Source: Sabellastarte sp. h YS-2021
Taxonomy: Eukaryota > Annelida > Polychaeta > Sabellida > Sabellidae
Assembly (NCBI GenBank): GCA_964017235.1
Contig: OZ024929.1
Location: 64,203,603-64,267,602 of the forward strand
Length of the DNA: 64,000 nucleotides
Reading direction: 5' to 3'
Numbering within the stretch: position 1 is the stretch's first letter; each line of letters opens with the position of its first letter. This document shows, piece after piece, positions 5,562 through 31,142 of this stretch. The notes beneath the pieces are model-generated. The model saw only the letters and a program-made list of their open reading frames with translations. It ran no database searches and was not told where the DNA came from. A program made the translations under genes and the position numbers.

Positions 5562-6306
5562 CATACTTTGTGTTTTTTGCGAGTCTTTGTCCTGGAATTT
5601 GTGGCGTTTCGAGTGCTTACTGATTGCCGTTTTCAGTTAGTTTTGATTAACTTTAATTAAAGGATCGTTCGATTTCTTGGCCATTCTTTCGTCACTTTAT
5701 TAAAAATATCTAAACGAATTTCTTTTTTGGACATGCATAGCACACTAACCTATTTAATTTAAATATAACCTTTTGAACTTAAATTACTGATAAGATCTAT
5801 ATGGGCCGGCTACAGCTAAAGACACAATTCATCAAGGATGAATTTAATCCCGGATATGAAAGCTTGTATTTTTCATTAAAGGCTCTTGTCTTCGTAGATA
5901 TCAGTAACCAACATCTTTTATATAAATTAATCATTTTATTTAACAACTGAAGTGGTGTTAATGCTTCAAAATATATGGATTTGTGTTCGAGTTTTGGGTA
6001 CGGGTTGGCGGTCACTTCATCCATTATTTTCTTTGCGGTTTATTTGTTTGACAATGACTAGCAGAAATCATGCGCAGACAACGATTTTACAATAACAGTG
6101 ACTGCGCGATTCTTGAGGATTTCATTGGATGAGCAATATAATTTATTTTTCCAATGACATAATTGAGATTTTGTGTACTTTTTCCACTGATTTTTGTACT
6201 TTCTCCATTGAATATATACTAAAATTCGGAAATTCACCTCTTTTTAAGCACGAAAAATGCCCCCGGAAATTGCAAGCTTGTCTTTTACATTTAAGGCTCA
6301 CAAACT
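5562..6306. other. no gene recognised
   Basis: AT-rich DNA. The motif ATGCGCAGACAACGATTTT near 6070 recurs near 6459, suggesting a small repeated element around the inverted repeat at 6307-6420. No coding evidence. Confidence 0.45.
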
Positions 6307-6420
6307 CACTTCATCCATTAATTTCTTTGCGATTTATTTATTTGACAAATATTTTTTTCCATTTTGTAATGAAATAAGATGTCAAACAAATAAACCATAA
6401 AGAAATTATGAATGAAGTGA
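6307..6420. repeat. foldback inverted repeat, arms about 40 bp
   Basis: TCACTTCATCCATTAATTTC and the next 20 bases (6307-6346) are inverted with few mismatches at 6380-6420 (TGTCAAACAAATAAACC, then AAAGAAATTATGAATGAAGTGA in two pieces). The central spacer is about 33 bp. This is MITE-like, without a clear target duplication. Confidence 0.65.
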
Positions 6421-6639
6421 TGTCATTGTACATCTTTCATTCAACAAAAATGTGGGGCATGCGCAGACAACGATTTTTGTAGCAGACTGCCAATTAAGTA
6501 AAACGTTTTGTATGTGTGCATTATGAGCATACGACTATACGTGCTTGACAAATGACGAAAAGAAATCTGTATGTTATAAAATAAAATGCATTTTTATATT
6601 ATTTCACTTTAAAATACTGATCATGGATAGCTTACGTAT
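6421..6639. other. no gene recognised
   Basis: Short AT-rich gap between the foldback repeat and the left end of DIRS element A. It contains a second copy of the ATGCGCAGACAACG motif. Confidence 0.4.
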
Positions 6640-6956
6640 TTATTTTATTGCGTTAATACATCTTAACCTAGTGGACAGATGCAATTGTCCAGCGCCCTGC
6701 CAGTCTCGCCAAACGTTAGAAAAAAGCATCCTGAGCTGGGCTCTGGCCGGGACTGGTAGTGTCCTGTTCAATCGCCAGGTGGCTGTGTAGCCTACCTGCC
6801 GGTATACTGCGCATGCTCGCGCATGCGCTCTTCCTCTTTTTGTTTGGCGCGTGAAGGAACGCTTGAAGTTTAAGAGAAACTTTTAAATTTGATTTTATAT
6901 ATGTGTTAACTACAGTTTGGTGAATTTATTTGTGGTAGTGTTGTTTATTAAGTATC

Positions 6957-9080
6957 ATGGCATCTCCAGGAGATAAAAACATGTGGCCAAGTTATGGCAA
7001 GCTTTGATCTGCACGACAAGTGCGCAAGGTCTCGTGATAAGCTTATTGGAGAAGACGATTGTGTTTGTGGATAAACCTTGTAAGATATGTGACGGATTCT
7101 CTGATGCACAGAAAGAACTGTTAGCAACTCCGTCGTACAAAATCAGAAAAGACAAGAAGGCTGGTCTACTCATCTCTCCAAAAGACGTTACTATTTTACA
7201 GCCGGTAGATAATGAACCGACCTTTCAGTCACCAAGTGGTCAGACTGCGCAGCCTTCTGCGCTCCCCTCCTCACCTCCAACTTCTGCTCAGATGGCTAGT
7301 TTTGTTACTGCAGATCAGTTAGCCGCTATCTCAGATAAATGGGTGGAGCAATTTGCACGCATGGAGGCTCTTCTTTCACAAGGCAATGTCTTTTCCACCC
7401 CTGTTTCTGCAGTTAAGCCGGTGGATACCCAACCTCTCATCTCTCCGACTCCATTTTTACCACCAGCTACCCATCCCACCGGACCGGTTGAGGTTCCGGT
7501 AGCTGTTGATGCATCAGTTAAAACTAAATCTGTGGACCAAAAAGAGAAGAAGAAGCCTCATAAATCGAGAAAGGACAAACATTCAGAGAAATCTGTTAAG
7601 ACTCATCCTAAACTTGCCTCCTCTGAATCTAAATCAGACAAGAAAGGTTCTAGCAGATCTGAGAAAAACTGCAACCGGTCTGTCTCACCGGCCTCAAAAC
7701 CATCTTCTAAGAAGCAGGAACATTCTTCTGCCCCTCCGGCTGATACCAGCTCCGGTCCGGAGTCTGCTCATCAGTCCGTTATGTTTAAAGGGGACAACAG
7801 CCAGCCTGCCTCGGGCCCTGACAAGAGTGCTACCGGTTCTCTTTTCCGGTCAACATCCACTGTTTCTCAACCGGAACAAGATCAAGCCTGTACCGGTGCC
7901 TGTGCTTACCCACCGGCTACAGAAGCAGACCCTTATGAGCAAATCTCCGAAGATGATATGGAACGATCAGTGGCATTTTCCGGTTCAGACGATGGACAGT
8001 TTTCGGATTCCACTGAAACACTGGAACAGACGGAAGATATGTCTTATAGGGAAACAGTCCGGTCTATTAGATCATACATGGGCTGGCATCACATCCCCGC
8101 TTTTGAAACTGATTATTCTGAGCCAGACAAATCCAATAATCCCTGGAAGGGCAAAAACCCAAGGATATCTGTGGCCATGCCCCCGGATGACTGGCTCTGC
8201 CAGAAATTGGAGCGGTTAAATTTAACTGTCGCAGAGGGCTACCCCTCAAGATCCCAAGATTCGGCAGTTCTTAAACGTGACCAGTTTATCAAGGTGCCAA
8301 AGTCACAGGAGAAATGGTACAAGATGCATCTGTTGAAATCTGATGGTCCCCACCGTCCAAGCCGTTCGGTTTTTAATTGGAGAAACACTGAGGCAAAGGA
8401 TACCCTTCAACAGGTCCACCTTCCAGACCTATCGCCCAGGAATCTCTTTGTATATGGGAAAGGGCTGCCAGGGAAGACAGTTACATTATTAATCATGCAG
8501 CCGGTTTTAGTCGATGCTCAACAGAACTGCAAGATAAGATGTCTCAGAATATTGCCCTTTTGTGTTCCCGCCTTAACAAGGGCAAGGCACTCAAGGATGT
8601 TACCAATGCTTTGAATGACCTGCGTCACCTCATGGCCTTCCATCAACAGGTATCCGTGGCCATGGGCACGTCTCTTCAGCATTTGGCGGACAGTTTATTT
8701 GTGCACATGTCAAACCTGATCTTACTCAGAAGGGACTCGTATCTGGACTTTGTTAAACCGGGAGTCAAACAAGATACCATGAACCTGTTACGTAACGCCC
8801 CCATGTTTGGGTACAGGTTGTTCCCGGATGCTGCCATTATGATGGCGGAGCAGGATATCCAGAAACATGAAACCAGTAGTGTTGCTCAGGGACCCGGACC
8901 GGGTGCTCCTCAGCACACTAGCTGGAGAGGATCACACCTCCTGCCTCATCTGAACAGACGTCTCAACAGCAGCATCAGCCTTGGAGACAATTTAGTAGGA
9001 GTCGTTCCAGGGGACGCGGAAGGGGACGGGGCTCCAACCCTCGTTTCTCCAAGTCGCAGTCATACAAGCCATATAAATGA
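6957..9080 (+). pseudogene. DIRS A gag-like gene, frameshifted
   Basis: The likely start is ATG at 6957 (MASPG, compare MSSPG in B and C). The N-terminus should encode a Cys-containing region (FDLHDKCARSRDK, GEDDC, CKIC) but it is split between frames near 7060. The main frame, about 6985-8430, encodes a Ser/Pro/Lys-rich stretch, a coiled region (WVEQFARMEALL), an acidic patch and a conserved block (DDWLCQKLERLNLT, EGYPSRS). A further shift before 8455 moves the conserved helix block (WERAAREDS, NHAAGFSRC) to another frame. The last part returns to a third frame and ends in an RG-rich basic tail (SRSRGRGRG, SYKPYK, stop TGA at 9078-9080). The product would be a nucleic-acid-binding structural protein. 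At least three lesions make it a pseudogene. Confidence 0.75.
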
Positions 9081-9479
9081 CACTTATTGTGTTGGTCCAA
9101 CTCTCAATCATGTAAGGGCAATTCAGTTGGACCCAAAGTTTCAGACCAAAGTTATGGCAAAGACTCTAAACTTAGACAGTTTGGTTACACAGACAATGAC
9201 AAATTCAGTGGTGTCAACAACTTTAAATCCCCGGGATGTATTTTATCCTGCTGTAAGTCGTGTTCTTACTGTTCATTCACACGGGCCTCCACAAAGAATG
9301 GAGTGAGACCCGGTCAATGTCTGAGCAAAATAAAGCATGTCAAAGGTGTTTTTTTGTGTAAATCCATGTCTTTCTGTCCCATCTGCTCCCAATGTCCCCA
9401 ATGCTGTCGCCGGACAGACTGTAGGGGGACGATTACAACAGTTTTGGCATATCTGGCAAGAAATGGGTGCGAATCCTAG
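9081..9479 (+). CDS. Cys-rich frame following gag in frame (DIRS A)
   Basis: Directly after the gag TGA the same frame stays open for 132 codons to TAG at 9477-9479. It encodes a Cys-rich protein with SCCKSCSYC, then CKS, CPICSQCPQCC and CRG. Elements B and C carry the same Cys spacing in the same position. The frame overlaps the start of the RT frame, which is +1 relative to gag. In this copy the RT frame has stops at 9304 and just after, while the Cys frame is open, which suggests the Cys frame is the constrained one. The paired CxxC motifs suggest metal binding. It could be made by readthrough of the TGA or by reinitiation; no ATG stands at the junction here (TTG at 9087). I cannot name the family. 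Confidence 0.6.
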   Translation, partial: HLLCWSNSQSCKGNSVGPKVSDQSYGKDSKLRQFGYTDNDKFSGVNNFKSPGCILSCCKSCSYCSFTRASTKNGVRPGQCLSKIKHVKGVFLCKSMSFCPICSQCPQCCRRTDCRGTITTVLAYLARNGCES

Positions 9480-10850
9480 GGTGGTTTCTGTACTGAGGGA
9501 CGGTTATTCCCTCCCCTTCAGTCAGAGACCTCTCTTAACAAGATTCCCTTTGATTCACAGACTCACAGTGGTTACGCAAATCCTACCAAAAGCCGTTTCC
9601 TCAAAGAGGCTTTGCTAAATCTCATAGCAAAGCTGGAAGTAGAAAAAGTGGTTATCAAGTCGTCTCTGGCTTTTTACAACCGGCTCTTTCTTGTCCCCAA
9701 ACCGAACAGAAAATGGAGGCCAATCTTGGATCTAAGTCCGTTAAACCTGTATTTGAAGACCAGTTCCTTCAAGATGGAAAATCCGGAGACGATCTGGTTA
9801 TCCTTGCAGACAGGGAAATGGGTAACCTCGCTGGACTTCAGCGATGCATATTTCCACATTCCAGTCAACCAAAGGTCAAGAAAGTATCTGAGGTTCTTCC
9901 TGAACAACCAAACCTTCCAATTCATAGCTCTCCCCTTTGGTTTGGCCACAGCTCCCCTCAAGTTTACAAAGGTGGTCAAAGAAGTGAAGCTGATGGCTCA
10001 GGCCAGGGGTATCCAAATCCAGCAATACCTAGACGACTGGTTGCTGAGAGCCCAGTGCCGGGAAACCTGCCTACAAGATACCCAGATCCTCTTGGCCCTT
10101 TGCCAACAGTTAGGATGGGTAGTCAACAAGAAGAAATCAGAGTTGGAACCCCAGCAAATTTTCAATTTCGTAGGCTACCGGTTCGACCTTGTATCCGGTC
10201 GGGTCCTTCCCACTCAGCACTGGTGGATAGCTCTCCAGGAAAAATTAAATTTCATCAAGAACCGGAGCAGCTGCACAGTCAGACAGTTCATGTTCCTGAT
10301 AGGGCTGCTTACAACCACAGAGAAGCAAGTTTCGTCGGGACGTCTTCATATGAGGCCTATTCAATGGCATTTGAAATGTCACTGGCATGTCCCCGAAGTT
10401 CTAGAGAAGTTCATCCCGGTTCCCCCGTCACTCCATCCACACCTAGACTGGTGGTTAGACAAAAGCAATGTACTGGGCGGCCAACCTTTGCACCCTCTTC
10501 AACACGCTCTTCAGCTGTTTACAGACGCCCCAAACGCAAGAGGCACTTGGTCTCCCATAGAGAGTCGCCTTCACATAAACTTCTTAGAACTAAAGGCAGT
10601 CCTCCTGGCCCTGAAGAGCTTCGAGCATCTTTGCAGGGACCAGATTGTTCTTGTTGCGACAGACAACACAACAGTGGTCTCCTACATCAACAAGCAGGGC
10701 GGTATGAAGTCAGGCTCTCTGTGTGCCCTCCTTTGGAGACTGCTATCCTGGTGCCATCCTAGGAGAATTGTCCTGAGGGCAAGACACATCCCAGGTGGCT
10801 TGAATGTGATAGCAGACAAGCTTTCCAGACACAATAATTTCAACTTATAA
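9381..10850 (+). pseudogene. DIRS A reverse transcriptase-RNase H, frameshifted and truncated
   Basis: The RT begins around VGGRLQQFW and VVSVLRDGY. A one-base shift near 9545-9580 moves it to the frame that stays open from 9612 to 10850. Visible RT motifs are FYNRLFLVPKPN, RPILDLSPLN, SLDFSDAYFHIPV, ALPFGLATAPL and QYLDDWLL (catalytic DD). The RNase H part has LFTD, then LELKAVLLALKSF, ATDNTTVVSYIN and ARHIPGGLNVIADKLSR. About 13 residues after LFTD are missing relative to B. The frame ends abruptly in the element's right terminus, so the C-terminal domain found in B is absent. This matches DIRS RTs and not LTR or LINE RTs. Confidence 0.85.
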
Positions 10851-10874
10851 AAATTTAATTTACTTATTAAATTT

Positions 10875-10987
10875 TCCAGTTTCGAAAGCAAGACCAAATG
10901 GTTTTCATCAGGGGATATAACTGCTACAAAGATATATTTCTTTTGAAAATAAGGTAATTTATTAGGAATAATTTATAAAAATACTTA
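10875..10987. other. spacer between DIRS A and B
   Basis: About 110 bp between the right end of A and the left end of B, duplicated at 15442-15554. It includes TTTTGAAAATAAGGTAATTT, a motif also seen upstream of the Harbinger element near 21135, so this is probably older flanking DNA. Confidence 0.5.
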
Positions 10988-11064
10988 TTTTATTGCGTTA
11001 ATACATCCTATCCAATGGACAATTGCTTTACCGGTCCCGCCAAACGTCAGAAAAAGACGTCCTG

Positions 11065-11152
11065 TATATAATACCGGCAGGACCGGCCAGGAGAGTGCAT
11101 TCGCCAGGTGGCGCATCGTACTTCCTCTTCCTGTCTAGACATCGTGACGTCA
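11065..11152 (+). promoter_or_regulatory. TATA-like and CRE motifs in left terminal repeat of B (first copy)
   Basis: TATATAA at 11065-11071 and a perfect palindromic CRE, TGACGTCA, at 11145-11152 lie in the left terminal repeat about 130-210 bp before the gag ATG. CREs bind ATF/CREB-type factors. Use as a promoter is inferred from position and from conservation of the CRE in element C. Confidence 0.5.
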
Positions 11153-11280
11153 TAGCATCTTTTTCGTTTGGCGCGTGGAGAGTGAAGACATGTTTTCTCG
11201 ATAAGCGAATATTTTGTTCTACACTGAACGCAACTTTTTTAATTCACTTTTAAAGTTATTTAGAAGTATTACCTACAACT

Positions 11281-12244
11281 ATGTCATCTCCAGGACAAAG
11301 ACGAGGCTCCTGCGGACACGCTATGGCTGGGTTCGACTCCCACTCCAAGTGTGCACGTTGTAGGGACAAAGGGCTAGGCGACGACCCCTGCGTCCAGAAG
11401 AAGGAATGTGCTATCTGTAGAGGGTTTAACCCTGAACAGATCCAGCAATTGTCTACCCCTACTTATAAAGACAGGAAAGACAAGAAGGCGACTGCGTCCT
11501 CCTCCACTCCCACTCTCGTGGACCCTGCACACATTAGTGTGCTGGGTAAAGTGGAGAAGGTCAAGGCTGTTCATTCTACCCCTACTACCAAGAAGACGAA
11601 GCGTAGTGAATCCCCCAAGCCTTCTGCCAGTAAGAAGAAATCTTCCAGCAGTAAACCATCAGCTGAAGATTTGAAGCAACTTGATGAGAAGTGGGCAGAG
11701 AGATTCTCCCGTCTTGAGGCAATGTTATTGGCCAAGACTTTCACAGTACCAGTTGAACCAGTTGTGAAACCAGCTTCAGATGTTACTACCAGCCAGAAGC
11801 CATTTTTTTTATCCTGGTGCCACCACCAGCAAGCTGGCTGTAGAGAAACCCGGTCCCGGCCTTGATCAGGTCACCGGTGAAGCTGTAGAGGAGATGGAGA
11901 CTGCCACCCAACCCCTTGGGGTTCCCGGTGCAGGGATAGCAACCCAGCCTGTTCAGGCCCCGTCTCCAGTACATCTAAATGCACTGTTCCCGGATCAGCT
12001 TATCACCAAGGCTGAAGAGGAAATCAGTAGGAATGACGAGAGGCGTTCGTCGGGTACATCACACCGACAGCAAAATCGTTTCCTGCCTTACCCTTCAAGT
12101 GATAGATCTACGGGTCACCATGACAGGAAACCTACCCTTCCGGCTTGGAAGCAGATTAAAGACAAGCAACAGGCCAGGAAAGGTCGTGGCAAGGCCTCAA
12201 CGTTCTCCCAGAAGCCTGCCAAGGGGTTCAAGCCTCATAAATGA
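11281..12244 (+). pseudogene. DIRS B gag-like gene, first copy
   Basis: ATG at 11281 (MSSPGQRRGSCGH). The N-terminal Cys pattern C-x13-C-x2-C, then C, C-x2-C (KCARC, DDPC, CAIC) is shared with A, C and D and suggests a metal-binding module. A Ser/Lys-rich stretch and WAERFSRLEAMLL follow. An indel near 11810 shifts the frame. The second part ends with PAWKQIKDK, a basic tail and KPHK, TGA at 12242-12244. Relative to A and C, the central domain (WLCxKL, AAGFxRC, LLRRDSY) is absent: the sequence passes from a Pro-rich segment straight to LFPDQL. The protein is thus internally deleted as well as frameshifted. Confidence 0.75.
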
Positions 12245-12640
12245 CAATCAATGTGTAAATTATGTGACCGGTCAGAAGAACTCTGTACATGTCACCGGTC
12301 AGGGAGGCTTGAACCCAGCACCAGTGGTGTCCAAGAACAGCAAAGTGACTTTAAATTTCAATGTAGACTCACATGTTGCAAATGCTCATATTGTCACCGG
12401 GTTGCCACAAAGGAAAGGCGTAAATCCCGCCTTTTGTCAAATGTACACAGAAATAAAATATGTGAAAAATGTTTCTTGTGTAGGTCACTTGTGTTCTGTA
12501 GATCCTGTCACCAATGCCCAACATGCTGTTATAGATCCTCCTGTAGGGGCAAGGTTAAAACAGTATTGGCAAAAATGGGAGTCCTTGGGTTCGAGTCCAA
12601 AAGTAGTTACCACACTAAGGGAGGGTTATACCCTCCCGTT
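12245..12640 (+). CDS. Cys-rich frame following gag in frame (DIRS B, first copy)
   Basis: The gag frame continues after TGA with QSM (ATG at 12251), then CKLCDR, CTC, CRLTCCKCSYC, CEKCFLC, CRSCHQCPTCC and CRG. The frame stays open past 13228, but similarity to A and C ends near codon 130, so 12640 is an approximate functional end. The RT frame overlaps at +1. An ATG six bases after the gag stop would allow reinitiation; readthrough is the alternative. Confidence 0.6.
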
Positions 12641-13228
12641 CAGGTACAGACCCTACTTGACAAGGTCACCGACTGTAATAAGCAGCTACCACAATCCAAC
12701 CAAACAGTCCTTCCTTGTGGAGGCACTGTATCAGCTGATAAACAAAAATGCAGTCGAACCGGTAGAAAACCAAAATTCACTGGGGTTTTACAACCGGCTA
12801 TTTTTGGTACCCAAACCCAACAACCGGTGGAGACCCATCCTGGACCTGAGCACCTTGAACACCTTTTTAAACACAGAGTCGTTCAAGATGGAGACCCCAG
12901 AGACAATAAGAACCTCCCTACAGGCAGGGGAGTGGGTCACATCCATAGATTTCAAAGACGCATACTTCCACATACCCATTCACAGTCAGTCCAGGAAGTA
13001 CTTGCGTTTTCATCTCCAGGGTCGATCTTACCAGTTCAAAGCCCTACCCTTTGGCCTATCCACAGCCCCCATGGAGTTCACAGTGGTGGCCAAAGAGGTC
13101 AAACTTATGGCACTTCAGAAGGGTGTAAGGACCCACCAGTACCTAGACGACTGGCTGGTGAGAGCCTCTACCCACGACACTTGTCTCCAGCATACTCAAA
13201 CTCTGGTCACACTTTGTCAGGGACTAGG
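12500..13228 (+). pseudogene. DIRS B reverse transcriptase, 5' part cut at duplication junction
   Basis: The RT frame is open from within gag (11979) to the junction. It shows VGARLKQYW, TLREGYTLPF, FYNRLFLVPKPN, RPILDLSTLN, IDFKDAYFHIPI, ALPFGLSTAPM and QYLDDWLV. After QGLGW the sequence switches to gag A (duplication junction at 13229). RNase H and everything after it are missing from this copy. Confidence 0.85.
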
Positions 13229-13647
13229 ATGGGCACGTCTCTTCAGCATTTGGCGGACAGTTTATTTGTGCACATGTCAAACCTGATCTTACTCAGAAGG
13301 GACTCGTATCTGGACTTTGTTAAACCGGGAGTCAAACAAGATACCATGAACCTGTTACGTAACGCCCCCATGTTTGGGTACAGGTTGTTCCCGGATGCTG
13401 CCATTATGATGGCGGAGCAGGATATCCAGAAACATGAAACCAGTAGTGTTGCTCAGGGACCCGGACCGGGTGCTCCTCAGCACACTAGCTGGAGAGGATC
13501 ACACCTCCTGCCTCATCTGAACAGACGTCTCAACAGCAGCATCAGCCTTGGAGACAATTTAGTAGGAGTCGTTCCAGGGGACGCGGAAGGGGACGGGGCT
13601 CCAACCCTCGTTTCTCCAAGTCGCAGTCATACAAGCCATATAAATGA
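13229..13647 (+). pseudogene. DIRS A gag-like, C-terminal fragment (second copy)
   Basis: Begins at the duplication junction with MGTSLQHLADS and ends in the RG-rich tail and TGA at 13645-13647. It contains the conserved LLRRDSYLDFVK and LFPDAA blocks and the same internal frameshift as the first copy. Confidence 0.75.
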
Positions 13648-14046
13648 CACTTATTGTGTTGGTCCAACTCTCAATCATGTAAGGGCAATTCAGTTGGACC
13701 CAAAGTTTCAGACCAAAGTTATGGCAAAGACTCTAAACTTAGACAGTTTGGTTACACAGACAATGACAAATTCAGTGGTGTCAACAACTTTAAATCCCCA
13801 GGATGTATTTTATCCTGCTGTAAGTCGTGTTCTTACTGTTCATTCACACGGGCCTCCACAAAGAATGGAGTGAGACCCGGTCAATGTCTGAGCAAAATAA
13901 AGCATGTCAAAGGTGTTTTTTTGTGTAAATCCATGTCTTTCTGTCCCATCTGCTCCCAATGTCCCCAATGCTGTCGCCGGACAGACTGTAGGGGGACGAT
14001 TACAACAGTTTTGGCATATCTGGCAAGAAATGGGTGCGAATCCTAG
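13648..14046 (+). CDS. Cys-rich frame, DIRS A second copy
   Basis: Same protein as 9081-9479 apart from the region of the single substitution near 13800. Open from the gag TGA to TAG at 14044-14046. Confidence 0.6.
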   Translation, partial: HLLCWSNSQSCKGNSVGPKVSDQSYGKDSKLRQFGYTDNDKFSGVNNFKSPGCILSCCKSCSYCSFTRASTKNGVRPGQCLSKIKHVKGVFLCKSMSFCPICSQCPQCCRRTDCRGTITTVLAYLARNGCES

Positions 14047-15417
14047 GGTGGTTTCTGTACTGAGGGACGGTTATTCCCTCCCCTTCAGTCAGAGACCTCT
14101 CTTAACAAGATTCCCTTTGATTCACAGACTCACAGTGGTTACGCAAATCCTACCAAAAGCCGTTTCCTCAAAGAGGCTTTGCTAAATCTCATAGCAAAGC
14201 TGGAAGTAGAAAAAGTGGTTATCAAGTCGTCTCTGGCTTTTTACAACCGGCTCTTTCTTGTCCCCAAACCGAACAGAAAATGGAGGCCAATCTTGGATCT
14301 AAGTCCGTTAAACCTGTATTTGAAGACCAGTTCCTTCAAGATGGAAAATCCGGAGACGATCCGGTTATCCTTGCAGACAGGGAAATGGGTAACCTCGCTG
14401 GACTTCAGCGATGCATATTTCCACATTCCAGTCAACCAAAGGTCAAGAAAGTATCTGAGGTTCTTCCTGAACAACCAAACCTTCCAATTCATAGCTCTCC
14501 CCTTTGGTTTGGCCACAGCTCCCCTCAAGTTTACAAAGGTGGTCAAAGAAGTGAAGCTGATGGCTCAGGCCAGGGGTATCCAAATCCAGCAATACCTAGA
14601 CGACTGGTTGCTGAGAGCCCAGTGCCGGGAAACCTGCCTACAAGATACCCAGATCCTCTTGGCCCTTTGCCAACAGTTAGGATGGGTAGTCAACAAGAAG
14701 AAATCAGAGTTGGAACCCCAGCAAATTTTCAATTTCGTAGGCTACCGGTTCGACCTTGTATCCGGTCGGGTCCTTCCCACTCAGCACTGGTGGATAGCTC
14801 TCCAGGAAAAATTAAATTTCATCAAGAACCGGAGCAGCTGCACAGTCAGACAGTTCATGTTCCTGATAGGGCTGCTTACAACCACAGAGAAGCAAGTTTC
14901 GTCGGGACGTCTTCATATGAGGCCTATTCAATGGCATTTGAAATGTCACTGGCATGTCCCCGAAGTTCTAGAGAAGTTCATCCCGGTTCCCCCGTCACTC
15001 CATCCACACCTAGACTGGTGGTTAGACAAAAGCAATGTACTGGGGGGCCAACCTTTGCACCCTCTTCAACACGCTCTTCAGCTGTTTACAGACGCCCCAA
15101 ACGCAAGAGGCACTTGGTCTCCCATAGAGAGTCGCCTTCACATAAACTTCTTAGAACTAAAGGCAGTCCTCCTGGCCCTGAAGAGCTTCGAGCATCTTTG
15201 CAGGGACCAGATTGTTCTTGTTGCGACAGACAACACAACAGTGGTCTCCTACATCAACAAGCAGGGCGGTATGAAGTCAGGCTCTCTGTGTGCCCTCCTT
15301 TGGAGACTGCTATCCTGGTGCCATCCTAGGAGAATTGTCCTGAGGGCAAGACACATCCCAGGTGGCTTGAATGTGATAGCAGACAAGCTTTCCAGACACA
15401 ATAATTTCAACTTATAA
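13948..15417 (+). pseudogene. DIRS A RT-RNase H, second copy
   Basis: Duplicate of 9381-10850 with the same frameshift near 14115-14145 and the same truncated end (NNFNL). One visible change puts Arg (CGG) in place of Trp (TGG) in the PETI(R/W)LSLQ stretch. B and C also suggest Arg there, so the second copy keeps the ancestral state. Confidence 0.85.
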
Positions 15418-15554
15418 AAATTTAATTTACTTATTAAATTTTCCAGTTTCGAAAGCAAGACCAAATGGTTTTCATCAGGGGATATAACTGCTACAAAGAT
15501 ATATTTCTTTTGAAAATAAGGTAATTTATTAGGAATAATTTATAAAAATACTTA

Positions 15555-15748
15555 TTTTATTGTGTTAATACATCCTATCCAATGGACAATTGCTTTACCG
15601 GTCCCGCCAAACGTCAGAAAAAGACGTCCTGTATATAATACCGGCAGGACCGGCCAGGAGAGTGCATTCGCCAGGTGGCGCATCGTACTTCCTCTTCCTG
15701 TCTAGACATCGTGACGTCATAGCATCTTTTTCGTTTGGCGCGTGGAGA
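15555..15748 (+). repeat. left inverted terminal repeat of DIRS B
   Basis: Starts TTTTATTG(T)GTTAATAC. The stretch from CCAAACGTCAG to GTGACGTCATAGCATCTTTT is found inverted at 20585-20720. It carries TATATAA at 15632-15638. Compared with the first copy the start has one C-to-T change. Confidence 0.88.
15712..15719. promoter_or_regulatory. palindromic CRE (TGACGTCA) in DIRS B left repeat
   Basis: Perfect TGACGTCA, 129 bp before the gag ATG. The same octamer sits in the right repeat at 20605-20612 and in both repeats of element C (32887-32894 and 41622-41629), although the surrounding sequence has diverged. Element A lacks it. Confidence 0.55.
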
Positions 15749-15847
15749 GTGAAGACATGTTTTCTCGATAAGCGAATATTTTGTTCTACACTGAACGCAA
15801 CTTTTTTAATTCACTTTTAAAGTTATTTAGAAGTATTACCTACAACT

Positions 15848-16808
15848 ATGTCATCTCCAGGACAAAGACGAGGCTCCTGCGGACACGCTATGGCTGGGTT
15901 CGACTCCCACTCCAAGTGTGCACGTTGTAGGGACAAAGGGCTAGGCGACGACCCCTGCGTCCAGAAGAAGGAATGTGCTATCTGTAGAGGGTTTAACCCT
16001 GAACAGATCCAGCAATTGTCTACCCCTACTTATAAAGACAGGAAAGACAAGAAGGCGACTGCGTCCTCCTCCACTCCCACTCTCGTGGACCCTGCACACA
16101 TTAGTGTGCTGGGTAAAGTGGAGAAGGTCAAGGCTGTTCATTCTACCCCTACTACCAAGAAGACGAAGCGTAGTGAATCCCCCAAGCCTTCTGCCAGTAA
16201 GAAGAAATCTTCCAGCAGTAAACCATCAGCTGAAGATTTGAAGCAACTTGATGAGAAGTGGGCAGAGAGATTCTCCCGTCTTGAGGCAATGTTATTGGCC
16301 AAGACTTTCACAGTACCAGTTGAACCAGTTGTGAAACCAGCTTCAGATGTTACTACCAGCCAGAAGCCATTTTTTTATCCTGGTGCCACCACCAGCAAGC
16401 TGGCTGTAGAGAAACCCGGTCCCCGGAGATCAGGTCACCGGTGAAGCTGTAGAGGAGATGGAGACTGCCACCCAACCCCTTGGGGTTGCCGGTGCAGGGA
16501 TAGCAACCCAGCCTGTTCAGGCCCCGTCTCCAGTACATCTAAATGCACTGTTCCCGGATCAGCTTATCACCAAGGCTGAAGAGGAAATCAGTAGGAATGA
16601 CGAGAGGCGTTCGTCGGGTACATCACACCGACAGCAAAATCGTTTCCTGCCTTACCCTTCAAGTGATAGATCTACGGGTCACCATGACAGGAAACCTACC
16701 CTTCCGGCTTGGAAGCAGATTAAAGACAAGCAACAGGCCAGGAAAGGTCGTGGCAAGGCCTCAACGTTCTCCCAGAAGCCTGCCAAGGGGTTCAAGCCTC
16801 ATAAATGA
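15848..16808 (+). pseudogene. DIRS B gag-like gene
   Basis: ATG at 15848. Same organisation as 11281-12244: N-terminal Cys module, Ser/Lys-rich linker, then KPHK and TGA at 16806-16808. The first frame stops at 16444 after a shift near 16420-16440. The second part is open from 16458. The central conserved domain of A and C is absent, as in the first copy. The expected product binds element RNA/DNA in particle assembly; this is inferred from position. Confidence 0.75.
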
Positions 16809-17205
16809 CAATCAATGTGTAAATTATGTGACCGGTCAGAAGAACTCTGTACATGTCACCGGTCAGGGAGGCTTGAACCCAGCACCAGTGGTGTCCAAGA
16901 ACAGCAAAGTGACTTTAAATTTCAATGTAGACTCACATGTTGCAAATGCTCATATTGTCACCGGGTTGCCACAAAGGAAAGGCGTAAATCCCGCCTTTTG
17001 TCAAATGTACACAGAAATAAAATATGTGAAAAATGTTTCTTGTGTAGGTCACTTGTGTTCTGTAGATCCTGTCACCAATGCCCAACATGCTGTTATAGAT
17101 CCTCCTGTAGGGGCAAGGTTAAAACAGTATTGGCAAAAATGGGAGTCCTTGGGTTCGAGTCCAAAAGTAGTTACCACACTAAGGGAGGGTTATACCCTCC
17201 CGTTC
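16809..17205 (+). CDS. Cys-rich frame following gag in frame (DIRS B)
   Basis: Same as 12245-12640. TGA, CAA, TCA, then ATG at 16815 in the gag frame, and Cys clusters CCKCSYC, CEKCFLC, CRSCHQCPTCC and CRG. The end given is where similarity to A and C stops; the frame itself runs on to 18011 inside the RT gene. Confidence 0.6.
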
Positions 17206-19132
17206 AGGTACAGACCCTACTTGACAAGGTCACCGACTGTAATAAGCAGCTACCACAATCCAACCAAACAGTCCTTCCTTGTGGAGGCACTGTATCAGCT
17301 GATAAACAAAAATGCAGTCGAACCGGTAGAAAACCAAAATTCACTGGGGTTTTACAACCGGCTATTTTTGGTACCCAAACCCAACAACCGGTGGAGACCC
17401 ATCCTGGACCTGAGCACCTTGAACACCTTTTTAAACACAGAGTCGTTCAAGATGGAGACCCCAGAGACAATAAGAACCTCCCTACAGGCAGGGGAGTGGG
17501 TCACATCCATAGATTTCAAAGACGCATACTTCCACATACCCATTCACAGTCAGTCCAGGAAGTACTTGCGTTTTCATCTCCAGGGTCGATCTTACCAGTT
17601 CAAAGCCCTACCCTTTGGCCTATCCACAGCCCCCATGGAGTTCACAGTGGTGGCCAAAGAGGTCAAACTTATGGCACTTCAGAAGGGTGTAAGGACCCAC
17701 CAGTACCTAGACGACTGGCTGGTGAGAGCCTCTACCCACGACACTTGTCTCCAGCATACTCAAACTCTGGTCACACTTTGTCAGGGACTAGGATGGCTGG
17801 TGAACAAGGAAAAGTCCGAACTGGCACCCAAACAGGTCTTCAACTTCGTAGGTTACCAGTTCGACCTGAAAGAGGGCAAGGTCAGACCAACAGCAGAACG
17901 TTGGCAGACCTTGACAGACAAGATCAGATCAATACTGTCGGATCCGGTTTGCCCGGTCCGACAATTCATGTCCCTCATAGGTCTACTCAACAGAAAAGCA
18001 AGTACACTTAGGGCGACTCCACATGAGACGCATACAGTGGCACTTGAAAAACAACTGGAGGGTTCCAGAATCACTGGAAAAAGTGATCCCGGTCCCCAAG
18101 TCCCTCCACCCCCATCTAAGGTGGTGGCTGGAGGAAAGCAATGTGCTACTAGGTCAACCATTACACCCTCTAGAACATGCTCTGCAAATATTTACAGACA
18201 CATCAAAAGAAGGGTGGGGCGCTCACTTAGACGAGCACACTGCAAGGGGAACTTGGTCCCTTCCAGAGAGCAAGCTGCACATAAACCACTTAGAGCTAAA
18301 AGCAGTGTTTCTAGCTCTAAAAGAGTTTCGAACCCTCTGTTACAACAAGACAGTACTGATAGCTACAGACAACACAACAGTGGTTGCCTATATCAACAAA
18401 GAGGGGGGGATGAAGTCGGGATCACTGTGTGCCCTACTGTGGCGAATCCTGTCCTGGTGTACCAGACAGCAGATAACCCTCAGGGCACGCCACATCCCCG
18501 GCCGGCTGAACGTGATAGCAGACAAGCTATCCAGACTTGGCCAGACCATTCAAACAGAATGGTCACTTCATCCAGAAGTATTCCAAGCTGTATGCTCAAG
18601 GTGGCACCAGCCACAAGTGGACCTGTTTGCCACCAGTTTCAACAACAAACTGCCACAGTTTGTGTCACCGGTGCCAGATCCCCAGGCTTGGCCAGTGGAT
18701 GCACTCAGCCTCTCCTGGGAGGACCTGGACCCATATGCCTTTCCACCAGCAGCCATTTTGGGCAAAGTGGTGGAGAAGTTACAGGACTACCCTTGCAACA
18801 GAATAATTCTGATTGCCCCAGGGTGGCCCAACATGCCCTGGTTCTGGGATCTAGTGGCAATGTCCAGTCAAATCCCACTGTGCCTGCCCAACATACCAAA
18901 CCTGGTATCTCAGCCATTCAACCAGGTCCTTCACAGGAACCTGTCAAATCTGAACTTACATGCCTGGCTCCTAGAGCCTCAGCAATCAAGGAGCAGGGCT
19001 TCTCTGAGGCAGTGGCAGCACGAATTGAGGCTCCTCAAAGAGGATCAACCAGATCTGTCTATGAGGCAAAGTGGACCATTTTTACAAAGTGGTGCCTCAG
19101 TAATCAGGTGGACTTCAGGGCACCACCTCTGA
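17064..19132 (+). pseudogene. DIRS B reverse transcriptase-RNase H-MT-like gene
   Basis: The RT has LPFGLSTAPM, YLDDW (about 17704) and FVGYQFDL. A small deletion near 17985-18010 (after SLIGLL) shifts the frame. The rest is open from 18023 to TGA at 19132. It covers the linker WHLKNNWRVPE, RNase H (IFTDTSKEGWGAHL, HLELKAVFLALKEF, ATDNTTVVAYIN, ARHIPGRLNVIADKLSR) and a C-terminal region (VDLFATSFNNKLPQFVSP, DALSLSWEDLDPYAFPP, RIILIAPGWPNMPWF) at the position of the Dam-methyltransferase-like domain described for DIRS elements. All RNase H acidic residues appear present. One frameshift separates RT from RNase H. Confidence 0.88.
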
Positions 19133-20085
19133 AAGCCATTGCTGACTTCCTCCTGCACTTGTTTCAGGACAAGAAGTTGCAACCAGGCACTATTGATGGC
19201 TACAGATCAGCCATTGCTGACAAACTGGGCAATTCCACCATTAATGTCAGCAAGGATGAAAATCTCACTCGTCTCCTGGACAGTTTCCATTGAGACAGAC
19301 CCAAGGGCAGGAGGGGCATCCCCTCTTGGAACCTTTCCCTGGTGCTTCACCAGCTGACAAAGGCTCCCTTTGAACCCCTTAAAGAGGCCTCCTTGAAACA
19401 TCTGACTTTCAAGACTGTTTTCTTGCTGGCCTTAGGTTCTGGTAAACGCAGGAGTGAGATCCATGCTTGGTTACATAAGAACATCAGACACCAGTCAGAC
19501 TGGTCTAAGGTGTCCTTGTACCCCTCACCCAGCTTCCTTTCCAAGAATCAGCTGGCCAAGGAGGGTCCAGACAGCGTGGCTGCAGTGGTCATTCCAGCCC
19601 TGGCACCATCTCTGGATAAATCACTCAAGGGTGATAGGTCCCTATGTCCAGTTAGAGCCCTACGCTACTACTTGGACAGGACCTCAGACCTTAGGCAGAA
19701 TAAGGAGTTGGTCTTTGTCTCCTTCAAGAAGGGGTTTGACAAAGACATCTCACCTGCCACCATCTCCTCATGGATCAAACAGACTGTGATTCTGTGCTAT
19801 GAGCTCTCCGACCAAGAGGCCCTATCCTTACATCAGGTTAAAGCCCATGATGTTAGGGCCTTTGCTGCTTCTAAGGCCTTCCATTCAGGGATCTCCTTAG
19901 ACCAGATTTTGTCAGCCTGCCACTGGAAATCCCACAACACCTTCACTCAGTTTTATTTGAAGGATGTTGCCTGGGCTGACTCAAGAGCTTTTCCACCTGG
20001 GACCTGTAGTGGCTGCCCAGCAGGTGCACCACCAGGCCCAGAAGTGAGGAGATGTTGTATATATGTAAATATGTACATATTGTAA
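18964..20085 (+). pseudogene. DIRS B tyrosine recombinase, one nonsense mutation
   Basis: It overlaps the end of the RT gene in another frame. The N-terminal core-binding part reads SVYEAKWTIFTKW, DFLLHLFQ and IDGYRSAIADKLG. Element C starts this gene with ATG (MAPRA), but B has lost that ATG (LAPRA). TGA at 19291-19293 replaces the Arg codon AGA of C. The frame then continues with the catalytic domain: GSGKRRSEIHAW (first Arg), HDVRAFAASKAF (His and second Arg), ACHWKSH and FTQFYLKDVAW (Tyr nucleophile). A small indel near 19982 shifts the last ~20 codons; the family's ending (ELFHLGPVVAAQQ) is in the other frame, with a stop near 20048. In life it would integrate circular element DNA. Confidence 0.88.
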
Positions 20086-20433
20086 ATATGCCAGATATGT
20101 ACATAGTGTAAATAGTTTTCAATGTACATATTTTTCTATAAAAAAAAAAAAAACAAAAAAAAACTGTGATTTGCTTCCTTTGGGAAGTTTATTTCTTCTG
20201 GGACTGAACTCAGCCCTCTCTCTCTCTATCTTCCCCTACTCAGATCAACTCTGGGAGGGAAAGAAAAAGAGGGGGGCAACGACGGTAGACTCCCGGTTAA
20301 CCGGTGAGTTGGTAGCCGACCTTGACCTCTCAGGGTTCTCTGACCCTAGGTCAAATGGGCCTGCGCAATTTGTTTTGTTATGAGTTCACTTAAGTCCCTA
20401 GCTGCTTACCCGCCTACCAAGCAGTAGTTATTC
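20086..20433 (+). other. DIRS B 3' non-coding region
   Basis: TGTAAATA-rich sequence, an A-rich run (20142-20163), then a C/T-rich part and a GC-richer stretch before the complementary region. The same order is found in element C (40860-41450), apart from the SINE there. No coding frame. Confidence 0.7.
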
Positions 20434-20530
20434 AGCAATTGTCCATTGGATAGGATGTATTAACGCAATAAAATTGCAAATTTAATAAGTAAATTAAATT
20501 TTTATAAGTTAATACCCTATCCAATGGACA
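20434..20530. repeat. DIRS B internal complementary region
   Basis: 20434-20473 is the reverse complement of the outer left end (ATTGTCCATTGGATAGGATG, TTAACGCAATAAAA). 20474-20530 is the reverse complement of the outer right end (TTGCAAATTTAATAAG, then TTATAAGTTAATACCC). The head-to-head junction inside AATAAAATTGCAAA defines the element's outer ends as TTTTATTGC (left, 15555) and TTTGCAA (right, about 20805). Confidence 0.9.
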
Positions 20531-20805
20531 GGCAAGGCCCACCCAACCGGCCCCGCTATCAGCTTACTAGGGGTCTTACTAAGACTAGACACAAAAAGAT
20601 GCTATGACGTCACGATGTCTAGACAGGAAGAGGAAGTACGATGCGCCACCTGGCGAATGCACTCTCCTGGCCGGTCCTGCCGGTATTATATACAGGACGT
20701 CTTTTTCTGATGTTTGGCAGGACCGGTCGCGCCGACCGGTAAAGCAATTGTCCATTGGATAGGGTATTAACTTATAAAAATTTAATTTCCTTATTAAATT
20801 TGCAA
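20500..20805 (-). repeat. right inverted terminal repeat of DIRS B
   Basis: Bounded by TTAATACCCTATCCAATGG and its inverse TTGTCCATTGGATAGGG near 20748. The interior is the inverse of the left repeat, including the CRE at 20605-20612 and the inverted TATA-like element. It overlaps the complementary region at its inner edge. Confidence 0.85.
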
Positions 20806-21187
20806 GTTTGCTTGTGTTAAGTATCCGTGTTACAATATTTTATAAAATCCATCCACGAAAGCATGAAGGAAGGCATTTTCTTATTTTAAATGAAATTGTT
20901 AAATATTTTATCAAAATACTTACAGTTTGGTTGTGTAAAATATCTGTTTTACAATATTTTTATAAAATTCAAATAGATTATATATTTATAAAATGAACTA
21001 CTACAATGTACTAGTTTGCTCATCCGCTGTGTACGCTTCAAACTTAAAATATGTCTTCTCCCTTCGAAATCCAAATTCAAACTGCGTAGTTATAGATAAA
21101 TCCCTGTACTTATAAACCTGTATTTAGAAACCTACATTTCTTCTGAAAATAAGGTAATTTTATTTCACTTTAAAATGTTTATAAATC
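20806..21187. other. AT-rich gap between DIRS B and Harbinger
   Basis: Contains repeated ATTTTATAAAATACTTACAG-like strings (about 20836, 20911, 20955) similar to 29105 beyond the Harbinger element. It is probably old flanking intron DNA into which both elements inserted. No gene seen. Confidence 0.5.
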
Positions 21188-21540: not shown

Positions 21541-21633
21541 CGATTCTTGTTTTGCAAAGTTGCTGGATTTTCTGGGTATATATATATAAAATCCGCGATC
21601 TAATCACCATTGCTTTTCTAGGAACACAGCAGG

Positions 21634-23204
21634 ATGCCACCTTTTAATGGAAGACAGATTCAACAACAACTTAGGGCTTTTTTGGTTTTTATTCAGTTAC
21701 AAATAATCATGTATTTCCAATTTTTACGTCAAGCACAGCAACCACCACCACCAGCACCACCAGCACCCATACAGAGACCTAGAAGAAGGCACAACATGTG
21801 GGTCAGGCCATGGCTACTGCAGAGAGAGGAGAGGGGGGCCTACCACAACATTATGGCTGATCTGTATGCCACAGACATTCCAGGATTCACCAATTACATG
21901 AGGATGACCCCAGAATTCTTTGAAATGATAAAGACCAGACTGGAACCACGTCTAGCCAGGCAGGCCACCAACTACAGAGATCCAATCAGTGTTGGGGAGA
22001 AGTTAGCCCTCACCATCAGATATCTGGCCACTGGAGAGTCATACACATCATTATCCTGTCAGTTCAGGGTTGGCAGATCCACCATTTCCAAGTTTCTACC
22101 AGAGGTCTGCAGGGCCATCCAGGATGAGTTCACCAGAGAGTACCTCAGATGTCCTACTACTCCAGATGAGTGGAAAGAACTGGAAAGGGAATTCAGGATC
22201 AGGTGGAATGTTCCACATGCCCTGGGAGCCCTGGATGGGAAGCATGTGGCCCTGAAGAAACCCAAGAACTCTGGAGCCCTCTACCACAACTACAAGGGGT
22301 TCTTTTCCATTGTCATGTTGGCCCTGGTAGATGGACAGTACAAGTTCAGATGGGTGGATGTGGGTACAGCTGGATCTTGCTCAGATGCCCAGATATTTAA
22401 TGCCTCTCAGCTGAAGAGGAGGATTGAAGATGGCAGGATAGGCTTCCCTGACCCAGCTCCTATAACCCAGGGTGGTAGAGATGTCCCCTGATTCATTCTG
22501 GCAGACGATGCTTTTGCCCTGAAGACCTGGCTCATGAAACCCTATGGCAGAAGGCTGTTAACAAGAGAGGAAAGGATTGCCAACTATAGAATATCAAGGG
22601 GCTGGAGAGTTGTGGAGAACGCTTTTGGCATCCTGGTTTCAAGATTCAGAGTGATGAGGACCACCATTGAACTACCCCCAGAAACAGATGTTTTTTTTAT
22701 TTATTTATTTGGGGTTTTACGTCGCTTTCAACACTGTACAGGTCATATCACGACGGGTAGTTGGAAGGGCAGAGGAAACCAGTACATAGAGTTCGCTAGG
22801 GTTGTGTACTGTAAACTGCCGACCAACGGCAAGCAACTACCAGCTTTCCCACTTAAGGCCATAACGGGGATCGAACCCCGGCCTCAGAGGTGGAAGGCGA
22901 GAGTGTTACCACTCTGCCACCGTGCCCCCCCCCCCCCCCCCCCCCACCAGAAACAGTTAGAGAAGTGGTCATGACCTGTGTGGTTCTGCACAACATACTC
23001 AGAAGCCAGTATCAAGGTCAACCTGCTGGTCAGCAGCCTGGGGAGGATGATGATGATGTGCCTGGTGATTGTGGATTGATTGGTGGTGCTGCTGGTGGTG
23101 GCCAAGACAGAAACCCTGCTAGAGAGGCCAAAAGACAGAGGGATTACCTGAAGGACTACTTCAATAATGAGGGAGCAGTGGCCTGGCAACATGGCAGAAT
23201 ATAA
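21634..23204 (+). pseudogene. Harbinger DDE transposase (HARBI1-like), stop codon plus SINE insertion
   Basis: ATG at 21634. A Gln/Pro-rich N-terminus is followed by a helix-turn-helix-like part (SYTSLSCQFRVGRSTISKFLPEV) and the DDE_Tnp_4 catalytic core: GALDGKHVALKKP (first Asp), GSCSDAQIF (second Asp), [14 protein letters not shown] and VVENAFGIL (Glu). TGA at 22489-22491 interrupts the frame just before FILADDAF; the frame is otherwise unchanged across it. A SINE (22689-22946) with a 10-bp target duplication splits the gene after [11 protein letters not shown]. The C-terminus resumes ([12 protein letters not shown], acidic DDDD stretch, AREAKRQRDYL) and ends at 23202-23204. It would cut and join the element at TWA sites with help from the MADF partner. 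Confidence 0.9.
22689..22946 (-). mobile_element. tRNA-derived SINE, antisense, in Harbinger transposase
   Basis: Read on the minus strand it has a tRNA-like head with A box (TGGCAGAGTGGTAAC) and B box (GGGTTCGATCCC), a middle part, then the tail GTGTTGAAAGCGACGTAAAA followed by AAATAAATAAATAAA. It is flanked by CCAGAAACAG at 22678-22688 and 22947-22956, the target duplication. The 5' end carries a run of about 22 G (C on the + strand, ending 22945), longer than in the copy at 40922. RNA polymerase III transcription is implied by the boxes. Confidence 0.9.
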
Positions 23205-27038: not shown

Positions 27039-28244
27039 CTACTGAGGAGGCTGCTGCTGCTGTTGAGGCGGTGCTGAAGTGGTGATAGTAAAGAGCTGCG
27101 GTTGCTGCTGCTGCTGAGGCTGCTCGACGATCTGTGTTGATGTCAGATCAGGTAGCTGGCTTAATAGTCCACTCAGCTTGTGTCTGCTCCCTTCGTCCTG
27201 TGCAGTTAGGACAGATGTAGGGTTGCTGAAGCCAATGGGGCTTGGTGTATAGTACACAAAACTGCTGCTAGCTGCTGCTTGAGTGGAACTAGACGCCTGT
27301 GGAGTGGTTGTTGGCAGTAGGCCGAACCTCTGGGACTCCGTGGTAACAGTGGCTGATCTTCTGGGCTATGGCTGACGTCTACGGTTGCTCTTAATACTTT
27401 CGATGTCTCTAAATATCTTGCCCTTTAATTCTTCAAATTCTTCTTGAGTCATCTTTTCGGCCTCTGATGCCACGTAGTCAAAGAAGGGCTGCCTGTCTGA
27501 CTTCTGATGCAGAAAACCTGAGATAAGTGTCCTCATCAGCTCAAAGTGTTCGAGAATCTTGGCGTCTGTAGTTGAAACGGGTGTAGATGTAATGATGGAC
27601 TGACTCCTCTCCCTCAGGACACTGGACTCAAGGTGTTCTGTGTCAGTAGTTGACCCACGTGATTCGTCCTGCCTGCTGGTATTTGGACTGGCCTCAAAAC
27701 CTGAACTTCTGTTGGCCCCCTTTCTTCTGATGTGGGTTTTAAGAAAACCCATCTGTTGGTAGACCCAGGACTGTCTCTTGGTCATCTCCCTCGGGGCTTG
27801 GCCAGATTGGAGCTTAGACAGCTTTCCATAACGCGTTCGCTGGGACTCGAACCAACGTCTCACATCAAAGGGCTGGAGCTTGAGTTCTGCAGATATTTCT
27901 GCCCAGAGAGCCTCTCTTCTGGTCCTGTCACGGAAACGTGGATGTTCTTTGTCATACAGTTCTGGGTGCAGCTTTACAAATTCCACAATGGAAATTTCCT
28001 GACTGTCTGTAAAAGTTGCACACACCCTGGCTCTCTTGGCTGAAGAATGGCATTCTATATCTTCTTCACACCTCTCTTCTTCTTGTTCCACAGCTTCCTC
28101 AATAGCTGGACGTTCCTCAATCTCCTCCTCCTCTCTCCTCTCAATCACCTCCTCTGTAATTTCCACTCTTTCCTCTACTTCACTTTCCTTCTCCCTCTCA
28201 TCCATCTTTTTCCTTCCTCTCTTCCCTCCTTTCTCTTTCCTCAT
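27039..28244 (-). pseudogene. Harbinger MADF/Myb-like accessory protein, one in-frame stop
   Basis: ATG at 28242-28244 on the minus strand. The N-terminus is Lys-rich then very Glu-rich (about residues 1-65). A MADF/Myb-SANT-like DNA-binding domain follows (EISIVEFVKLHPELYD, ALWAEISAEL, VRRWFESQRTRYGKL; about residues 80-150). A C-terminal region with an EHFELMRTLISGFL helix comes next. TAG at 27366-27368 stops the frame at 292 codons, but the same frame continues for about 108 codons to 27039 with a Gln/Pro-rich tail, so the stop is probably a point mutation (for example CAG to TAG). PIF/Harbinger elements need such a partner for nuclear entry and DNA binding of the transposase. Confidence 0.85.
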
Positions 28245-28429
28245 AATCCAGTCGACAAAATAACAAAAAAATAGTAAAATGTGTCTCCTAACTGTGAAAT
28301 TTGCCTTAAGCTCAAGTATAATATATATAAAATAAAAACTGAAAACCCCTACAAATCAGTGACACACGTCTCTCAGTAGCCAAACAGTCAGTAACAATGA
28401 CATGTAGTGTGCGCGGTCGCTTATATAGT

Positions 28430-30728: not shown

Positions 30729-31142
30729 AAGGAAATTGATATCTTGAGTCACCATTATGGACATGATTTTGTTGATGTCACTTTTAAGAGATTAGTTGAT
30801 CCAGATAAGCTGCCCTATGAATGGTCTCTTGCTAAGCAAACTGTTCTTGAACAATTGTATCCTAGAGACAAAACTAATCAGTTGTTAAAGTTATTACACA
30901 TGTACCACCAGGACTCTTTCCCAAATCTTATGGTTTTGGCAAACTTATCAATGATCATGCCATATCAAATCGCTGATTGCGAGCGTGGATTCAGTGCTCA
31001 AAACCATATGAAATCTTCCAAAAGAAATCGAATGCAATCCAAGCATCTCAATACACTTATGATGATCAGAATTGAAGGTGGCAAATTGGAAGAATTTAAT
31101 TTCAGTAATTCTGTTGATCTTTGGAGGGACCTGAAAAAGTGA
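30729..31142 (+). pseudogene. hAT transposase C-terminal fragment
   Basis: An open frame of about 138 codons to TGA at 31140-31142 ends with the hAT dimerisation region: SFPNLMVLANLSMIMPYQI, CERGFSAQN, MKSSKRNRMQSKHLNTLMM. This is the C-terminal signature of hAT transposases and of domesticated hAT-derived zinc-finger proteins. The catalytic core and N-terminus are absent, and the upstream frame is repeat DNA. AATAAA signals follow at 31193, 31303 and 31365. It could be a 3' exon of a domesticated gene, but a transposon fragment is more likely. Confidence 0.75.

Follow-up and report, generated by a model that had tools for sequence, protein, structure and literature searches.

A putative leaky Gag stop codon leading into a cysteine-rich domain and the tyrosine recombinase of DIRS-like retrotransposons

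Introduction

In a stretch of 64,000 nucleotides from Sabellastarte sp. (in the following, the window) DIRS-like retrotransposons carry a cysteine-rich open frame directly behind the gag stop codon. What does this frame encode, and how would ribosomes reach it? The initial annotation had proposed a novel Cys-rich product, conserved in three families and overlapping the reverse transcriptase (RT) frame. In the accessible part of a survey of 28 DIRS elements, a long overlap of pol and the tyrosine recombinase (YR) ORF is reported for half of them, with no molluscan element among these; its main text does not use the terms stop codon, zinc or cysteine (PMC3266345). How DIRS elements express YR is not stated in the accessible portions of the literature examined.

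Materials and Methods

All comparisons were made within one genome; no relatives outside the host genome were confirmed in viral_contigs or genome_contigs. Loose first-look searches of the host genome gave 51,715 candidates with the RT query of family B, 46,755 with that of family A, and 14,444–15,355 individually unverified candidates with two Cys queries. The A-type sample consisted of eight loci, two of them the window's own. Family B was represented by 30 and 30 partly overlapping loci (B RT and B Cys queries) and by 20 more. Ten divergent loci (L089–L098) were hand-picked among 150 listed A RT matches on RT similarity, the Cys frame being disregarded. Further samples were one 2.9 kb stretch of family D and 20 short loci from 150 listed D Cys matches. 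The family letters D to I are labels coined here for loci. Family D (L089, L099 and listed A RT matches) showed many equal scores and an RT frame of 892 aa, which suggests recent activity.

Results and Discussion

DIRS-Like Elements in the Window

The window contains the DIRS-like copies A, A2, B and B2 and a deleted copy C. A tandem duplication of 4.57 kb (8662–13232 versus 13229–17796, 99.76% identical) covers the 3' portion of element A together with the 5' portion of B. Consequently, A-B and A2-B2 are tandem duplicates, and the copies represent three families, but not five independent cases.

Copy B2 exhibited the features of a DIRS1-like retrotransposon. Its termini are inverted (15597–15731 versus 20593–20727, 98.5%), and its internal complementary region contains inverted matches of 33 and 41 bases at 20434–20510. 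The left end spans 15554–15731 on the plus strand, with 15554–15594 as inverted repeat of 20434–20474; the internal complementary region and the right end extend from 20434 to 20820 (plus strand). Two Rfam miRNA-model matches in this region (20440–20530) were well below the cut-offs and fit a hairpin-like inverted repeat. An ORF of 916 aa (16543–19293, plus strand) begins in the RT frame, where Pfam detected the reverse transcriptase domain RVT_1 (residues 277–440, E 6.2e-22), and continues in the gag/YR frame after a frameshift near 18000. A Phage_integrase-type domain follows RVT_1 (E 1.6e-5) with 25.2 bits, just below the curated Pfam cut-off of 27.1. This match and the homologous family D stretch in the gag frame provide the tyrosine recombinase. 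Its C-terminal part lies at 19294–20085 (plus strand) in the gag/YR frame of the family, behind a stop at 19291 where family D has Arg. No Pfam match to a methyltransferase domain after RNase H (RH) was obtained in the scan, which was limited to this chimeric ORF. In having Gag, RT/RH and YR, and in B2 also inverted termini as well as an internal complementary region, the elements resemble the DIRS1-like elements described in the accessible part of PMC3266345.

Another phage-integrase-type recombinase domain occurs in a second fragment, at 31940–32440 on the minus strand. Matches to DDE_Tnp_4 and hAT transposons and an ORF with a MADF domain were found at 21622–22974 (plus strand), 30618–31142 (plus strand) and 27366–28355 (minus strand). 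Two adjoining open stretches of 337 and 225 aa (33027–34040 and 34041–34718, plus strand) share one frame with one stop between them and gave no Pfam match at E 0.01.

The Cysteine-Rich Frame and Its Recurrence

In agreement with the initial annotation, the gag frame of A and B is open again directly behind the TGA and contains the Cys layout, with the RT frame at +1. In copy A the stop is located at 9078–9080 and the Cys-rich frame at 9081–9479 (plus strand, 132 aa), with the core starting at 9237. Comparison with relatives revealed compensating indels in this core at roughly 9295–9350. The duplicate A2 carries the equivalent stop at 13645–13647 and the Cys-rich frame at 13648–14046 (plus strand). 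In copy B, TGA and the hexamer CAATCA occupy 12242–12250 and the gag frame stays open from 12245 to 13873 (plus strand, 542 aa), its end falling in the duplicated A2 segment. In copy B2 the same stop and hexamer are found at 16806–16814, the gag/YR frame is open for 400 aa until the next stop (16809–18011, plus strand), and the conserved Cys core lies at 16926–17114 (plus strand). Copy C had been counted as a third single-frame case. Its TGA, CAATCA and Cys motif extend over 38924–39207 (plus strand), but the motif is divided between two frames: CKLSCCQSCSYC (39005–39040) is in the gag frame and ICQRCFLC...CRGQ (39112–39207) in another one, and the RT region is missing downstream.

The layout is more than a chance pattern, as it recurs in the divergent loci. 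A/A2 and B/B2 contribute no independent cases owing to the tandem duplication. The Cys frame was present in all ten loci chosen by RT similarity, some of them damaged: the core of L091 lacks its first half, that of L092 and of L098 is interrupted by a stop, and L097 has a stop at codon 3. In L094 the gag stop is replaced by TGT and the hexamer is retained. A TAG just past the core of L089 cannot occur in those D copies that have 1089 open codons. The RT-frame stops described for copy A are indeed present but specific to the window copy, as the RT frame of L003, L004 and L008 is open there; judged from these relatives, they are decay of that copy. The A relatives L005–L007 have RT-frame breaks of their own in the region.

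An alignment of nine core sequences showed 24 invariant gag-frame columns, 13 of which are Cys. The profile search proposed by the initial annotation revealed no significant match: no Pfam family matched any of the nine core sequences, and for a known Cys-rich fold of the RING/MYND type the best PDB matches had E values of 0.22 and 0.055. A CCHC zinc knuckle (CX2CX4HX4C) was not found, and the alignment contains no invariant His. Fold prediction with four window sequences was uninformative (pLDDT 33.6). The domain is probably zinc-binding. The CCHC zinc fingers of PAT and VIPER Gag, as described in the accessible parts of PMC4157794 and PMC6681497, are likewise Cys-rich, Gag-linked and perhaps nucleic-acid binding. 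Unlike them, the domain found here has no invariant His, shows about 14 Cys in different spacing and lies beyond the gag stop.

Selection in the Three Reading Frames

For the Cys core one copy each of eight families was compared (A L004, B L061, D L089, E L090, F L098, G L095, H L096 and I L097); further copies of these families were omitted, as were C and the copies in the window. Amino acid identity of the core was 0.68 in the gag frame, 0.56 in the RT frame and 0.52 in the third frame. The normalised N/S ratio was derived from codons with a single difference and a fixed transition weight; it is a rough measure, and the argument rests on the contrast between frames and regions. Over 56 codon steps and 28 pairs this ratio was 0.20 in the gag frame (bootstrap 0.11–0.30), 0.72 in the RT frame (0.46–1.34) and 1.10 in the third frame (0.61–2.09). 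The four pairs without shared sequence gave 0.22, 0.94 and 1.03, respectively. In the 66 codon steps just downstream of the core the order was reversed, with 0.16 in the RT frame, 1.78 in the gag frame and 1.47 in the third. L003 was used here for family A because L004 is frameshifted in this part.

Comparison thus revealed purifying selection on the Cys core in the gag frame. A frame-specific substitution test of this type had been proposed by the initial annotation, and its outcome across eight families supports a conserved Cys-rich product overlapping the RT frame. By this measure the constraint switches from the gag frame to the RT frame at the end of the Cys motif, and on the evidence of substitutions and recurrence the Cys-rich frame is real and coding. 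A within-family variant test with 64 B copies gave no significant signal for the Cys core (13 shared variants); in the RT region the same test showed an RT-frame signal (P 2.3e-5). Given the gag-frame protein, the openness of the RT frame over the gag end and the Cys region was not significant in 10 of 11 sequences (H_L096, 0.019).

The Cysteine-Rich Frame Runs into the Recombinase

The gag frame of family D stays open behind the gag stop for 1089 codons, up to the end of YR. The N-terminal YR domain begins at about codon 743, and the end of the RT ORF corresponds to codon 786. Among the 150 matches listed for the D query, 28 had 1089–1090 aa open after the stop, two of these with a stop in the matched stretch. 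Four of the 150 matches listed for the B query had 1080 aa open. The remaining listed matches were shorter or different, as expected of a mostly decayed group. The extent of about 130 codons originally given for B is accordingly far too short. Read from these frames, the Cys frame is the 5' end of a long YR ORF (ORF2), which starts directly after the gag stop in the gag frame and overlaps RT/RH. A separate novel product is hence not supported, and a long overlap of the YR ORF with pol has been described (PMC3266345, accessible part).

The absence of stops was examined with 5000 shuffles of synonymous codons in which the RT protein was kept. In the RT overlap of family D no gag-frame stop occurred in 623 codons versus 26.9 expected. 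Family B showed none in 524 codons versus 16.1 (L061) and none versus 16.7 (L064), and the decayed window copy A two versus 18.7. None of the shuffles was as low as observed for D, B or window A, and the remaining frame contained 55, 43 and 36 stops, respectively. The absence follows from a rule of codon use in these copies: RT codons with T in the third position were found before AA/AG/GA codons in 0 of 128 cases in D versus 131 of 494 elsewhere, and in 0 of 126 cases in B versus 73 of 397 elsewhere. Six other window ORFs served as controls, and stops were not missing from either of their shifted frames (12 tests with P from 0.02 to 0.98). The smallest P belonged to the MADF ORF, with 23 stops versus 29.4; the ORF at 7503–8219 was left out because it is not in the gag frame. 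The non-overlapping YR part of D had 14 stops versus 19.9 (P 0.03). In the RT region of B, 3 of 109 shared variants and 20 of 353 singletons create gag-frame stops, and two shared variants create RT-frame stops. The shared gag-frame stops indicate that some copy groups have lost the frame.

Between core and YR the gag-frame sequence itself is not kept. The spacer showed no amino acid constraint (gag-frame ratio 2.2–2.9 over 412–470 codons), which is odd for a translated segment. Since the frame is kept open and the sequence is not, we take it to mean that translation continues to YR. In D, codon 597 of ORF2 is a Met ahead of the YR domain, and a separate YR start at this position is possible. 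Stops are absent on both sides of this codon (0 versus 16.2 expected before, 0 versus 8.8 after). AUG depletion in ORF2 (P 0.018 in B, 0.09 in D, 0.68 in A) was not used as evidence.

The change of constraint at CRG / VG-RL would also fit a readthrough of the gag stop followed by a +1 shift where the Cys core ends. This would yield Gag-Cys-RT, with the Cys domain as the N-terminal part of the Pol product. Such a shift leaves the absence of gag-frame stops over the next 500–600 codons unexplained. It would also be unnecessary, as the RT frame is already open upstream in 9 of 11 sequences, and inspection of 12 sequences by eye revealed no constant slippery site. We regard this reading as unlikely, although it fares best among the alternatives to a readthrough product that extends to YR.

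Context of the Gag Stop

The stop context of family B was surveyed in 82 entries (66 distinct), of which 64 were kept for coverage. The gag stop was TGA in 61 copies and TGT in one, with gaps in two, and was preceded by AAA in all 62 copies read. The codon after the stop was CAA in 60, CAG in two and CGA in one copy, and the next was TCA in 57 and TTA in five. The full context AAA-TGA-CAR-YYA was present in 59 of 64 copies, and the following codon varies freely. AAA TGA CAR TTA was found in all of 20 further loci. They were picked among matches that begin with the first codon, which biases the sample mildly, and they do not count as independent, since 61 of 190 pairs exceed 0.9 identity. CARYYA follows the stop in nine of the ten divergent loci, the tenth being L094. 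Among the A loci, CAATTA was observed in six of eight (L003–L008) and CACTTA in both window copies (9081–9086 in copy A, plus strand). Comparison thus revealed a conserved stop context. Leu TTA interchanges with Ser TCA, whereas T-Y-A is constant, which points to the RNA; the overlapping RT codons are a less likely cause. A role of two adenines ahead of the stop is indicated by the title of Tork et al. 2004. Selenocysteine at the TGA has no support, as an Rfam scan of 6000–21000 detected no SECIS and only the two weak miRNA-model matches.

The sequence stop-CAR-YYA is the tobamovirus (TMV-type, type I) readthrough motif, which also works on UGA (PMC3542737, accessible part). For UGA-CARYYA about 15% readthrough was measured in a mammalian reporter (PMC4132726, accessible part). 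The six bases directly after the stop in the B copies and the 20 further loci fit this motif. Natural type I cases are generally UAG according to the accessible part of PMC3542737, whereas the putative case here is UGA in an animal retrotransposon. Gammaretroviral gag-pol (type III, same source) shares the leaky gag stop that leads to a Gag fusion. There, however, UAG and a pseudoknot lead into Pol, whereas here UGA-CARYYA would lead into the Cys domain and the recombinase, with RT in another frame.

A Stem-Loop Downstream of the Stop

A stem-loop was predicted in copy A at 9094–9133 (plus strand; arms 9094–9102 and 9125–9133, 9 bp, loop of 22, computed on L004) and in copy B2 at 16829–16865 (plus strand; arms 16829–16836 and 16858–16865, 8 bp, loop of 21). 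The A, D, G, H and I copies have a perfect stem of 7–9 bp from 14 nt past the stop (shuffle P 0.003–0.06), and B has one of 8 bp at 21 nt (shuffle P 0.01). The stem of E is weak (6 bp at 15 nt, other arms, P 0.21), and F showed no significant stem (6 bp at 24 nt, P 0.29 and 0.48 in two copies).

In the A-type group (21 distinct rows) 98.2% of cells pair without any two-sided change, and shifted registers reach 2–51%; because the arms hardly vary, 500 shuffles pair as often as these data. Of 504 pairs in 63 B copies 486 hold. The arms of the B stem are about as variable as its loop (0.030 and 0.031 versus 0.033). L086, a divergent B copy, has three pairs changed on both sides with pairing kept, one pair gained and one lost; other registers show at most one two-sided change. 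Folding of 91-nt regions from 15 sequences gave weak z-scores of -1.5 to +1.2. Comparison thus showed that pairing is kept, and the stem downstream of the gag stop is likely, rather than proved, to be real.

These features also bear on two further routes to the Cys domain. A spliced mRNA could remove the stop or join the Cys domain to YR. It is very unlikely, as an RT overlap that is spliced out would not need freedom from stops, and splicing would not keep CAR-YYA and the stem. Reinitiation at a nearby ATG, which would yield a small free Cys protein, appears slightly less probable still. The window copies of B and C do have ATG as the third codon after the stop. In the 64 B copies this codon was CTG in 20, ATG in 18, TTG in 12, ATA in eight and GTG in two, with gaps in four. 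ATG is thus not conserved: it occurs in 18 of 60 fully read B copies and in none of the 20 further loci. In the families surveyed there is no conserved ATG between stop and core; the D copy L089 has no in-frame ATG ahead of the core or anywhere in the 178 codons read, and the first ATGs of the E to I copies are located at codons 73–92 inside the core. Moreover, reinitiation explains neither CAR-YYA nor the open spacer. Of the two routes left side by side by the initial annotation, readthrough is therefore favoured.

The least probable explanation attributes the Cys frame to RT-frame or base-composition constraint. Val/Ala residues of the RT frame, evenly fixed in their spacing, do mirror the Cys codons, and the RT-frame core identity and N/S ratio leave some room for it. 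However, the gag-frame ratio of the core is far below the RT-frame ratio, the order flips just downstream, and the invariant gag-frame columns with their Cys are shared by nine sequences.

Proposed Expression of Gag-Cys-Spacer-YR

Readthrough of the gag TGA probably produces Gag-Cys-spacer-YR in these DIRS-like elements. ORF2 lacks a conserved start codon at its beginning and would be entered by readthrough, aided by AAA-TGA-CAR-YYA and probably by the stem-loop 14–21 nt downstream. Most ribosomes would terminate and release Gag. A minority would continue and synthesize Gag followed by the Cys-rich domain, a spacer of roughly 600 residues, for which the frame before RT/RH codes, and finally YR. 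RT/RH would be read from the +1 frame through a separate event. Such a fusion may carry YR into Gag particles; the occurrence and rate of readthrough, like zinc binding, we infer from the comparisons.

In its full form the proposal is somewhat less secure: on balance, a Gag stop made leaky by hexamer and RNA stem appears to give a Gag fusion with a new domain of about 14 Cys and the integrating recombinase, and selection would keep about 600 RT codons free of stops in another frame only as a connector. The overlap of pol and YR is already known. What sets the present elements apart from the description in the accessible part of PMC3266345 is an ORF2 that begins at the gag stop, is in the gag frame and combines a Cys domain with a leaky-stop context. 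A literature search that most subscription papers lay outside yielded no mention of this Cys domain or of stop readthrough in DIRS elements, and the Cys domain and the leaky stop are regarded as provisionally new.

The readthrough reading gives a testable answer to the question of YR expression in DIRS elements and would explain the known overlap of the pol and YR ORFs. It also brings in a conserved Cys-rich domain that has no model in Pfam. If confirmed, it would be a case of a CARYYA leaky stop in an animal genome, in a very large group of elements. If general, many DIRS elements would set the dose of their integrase by readthrough.
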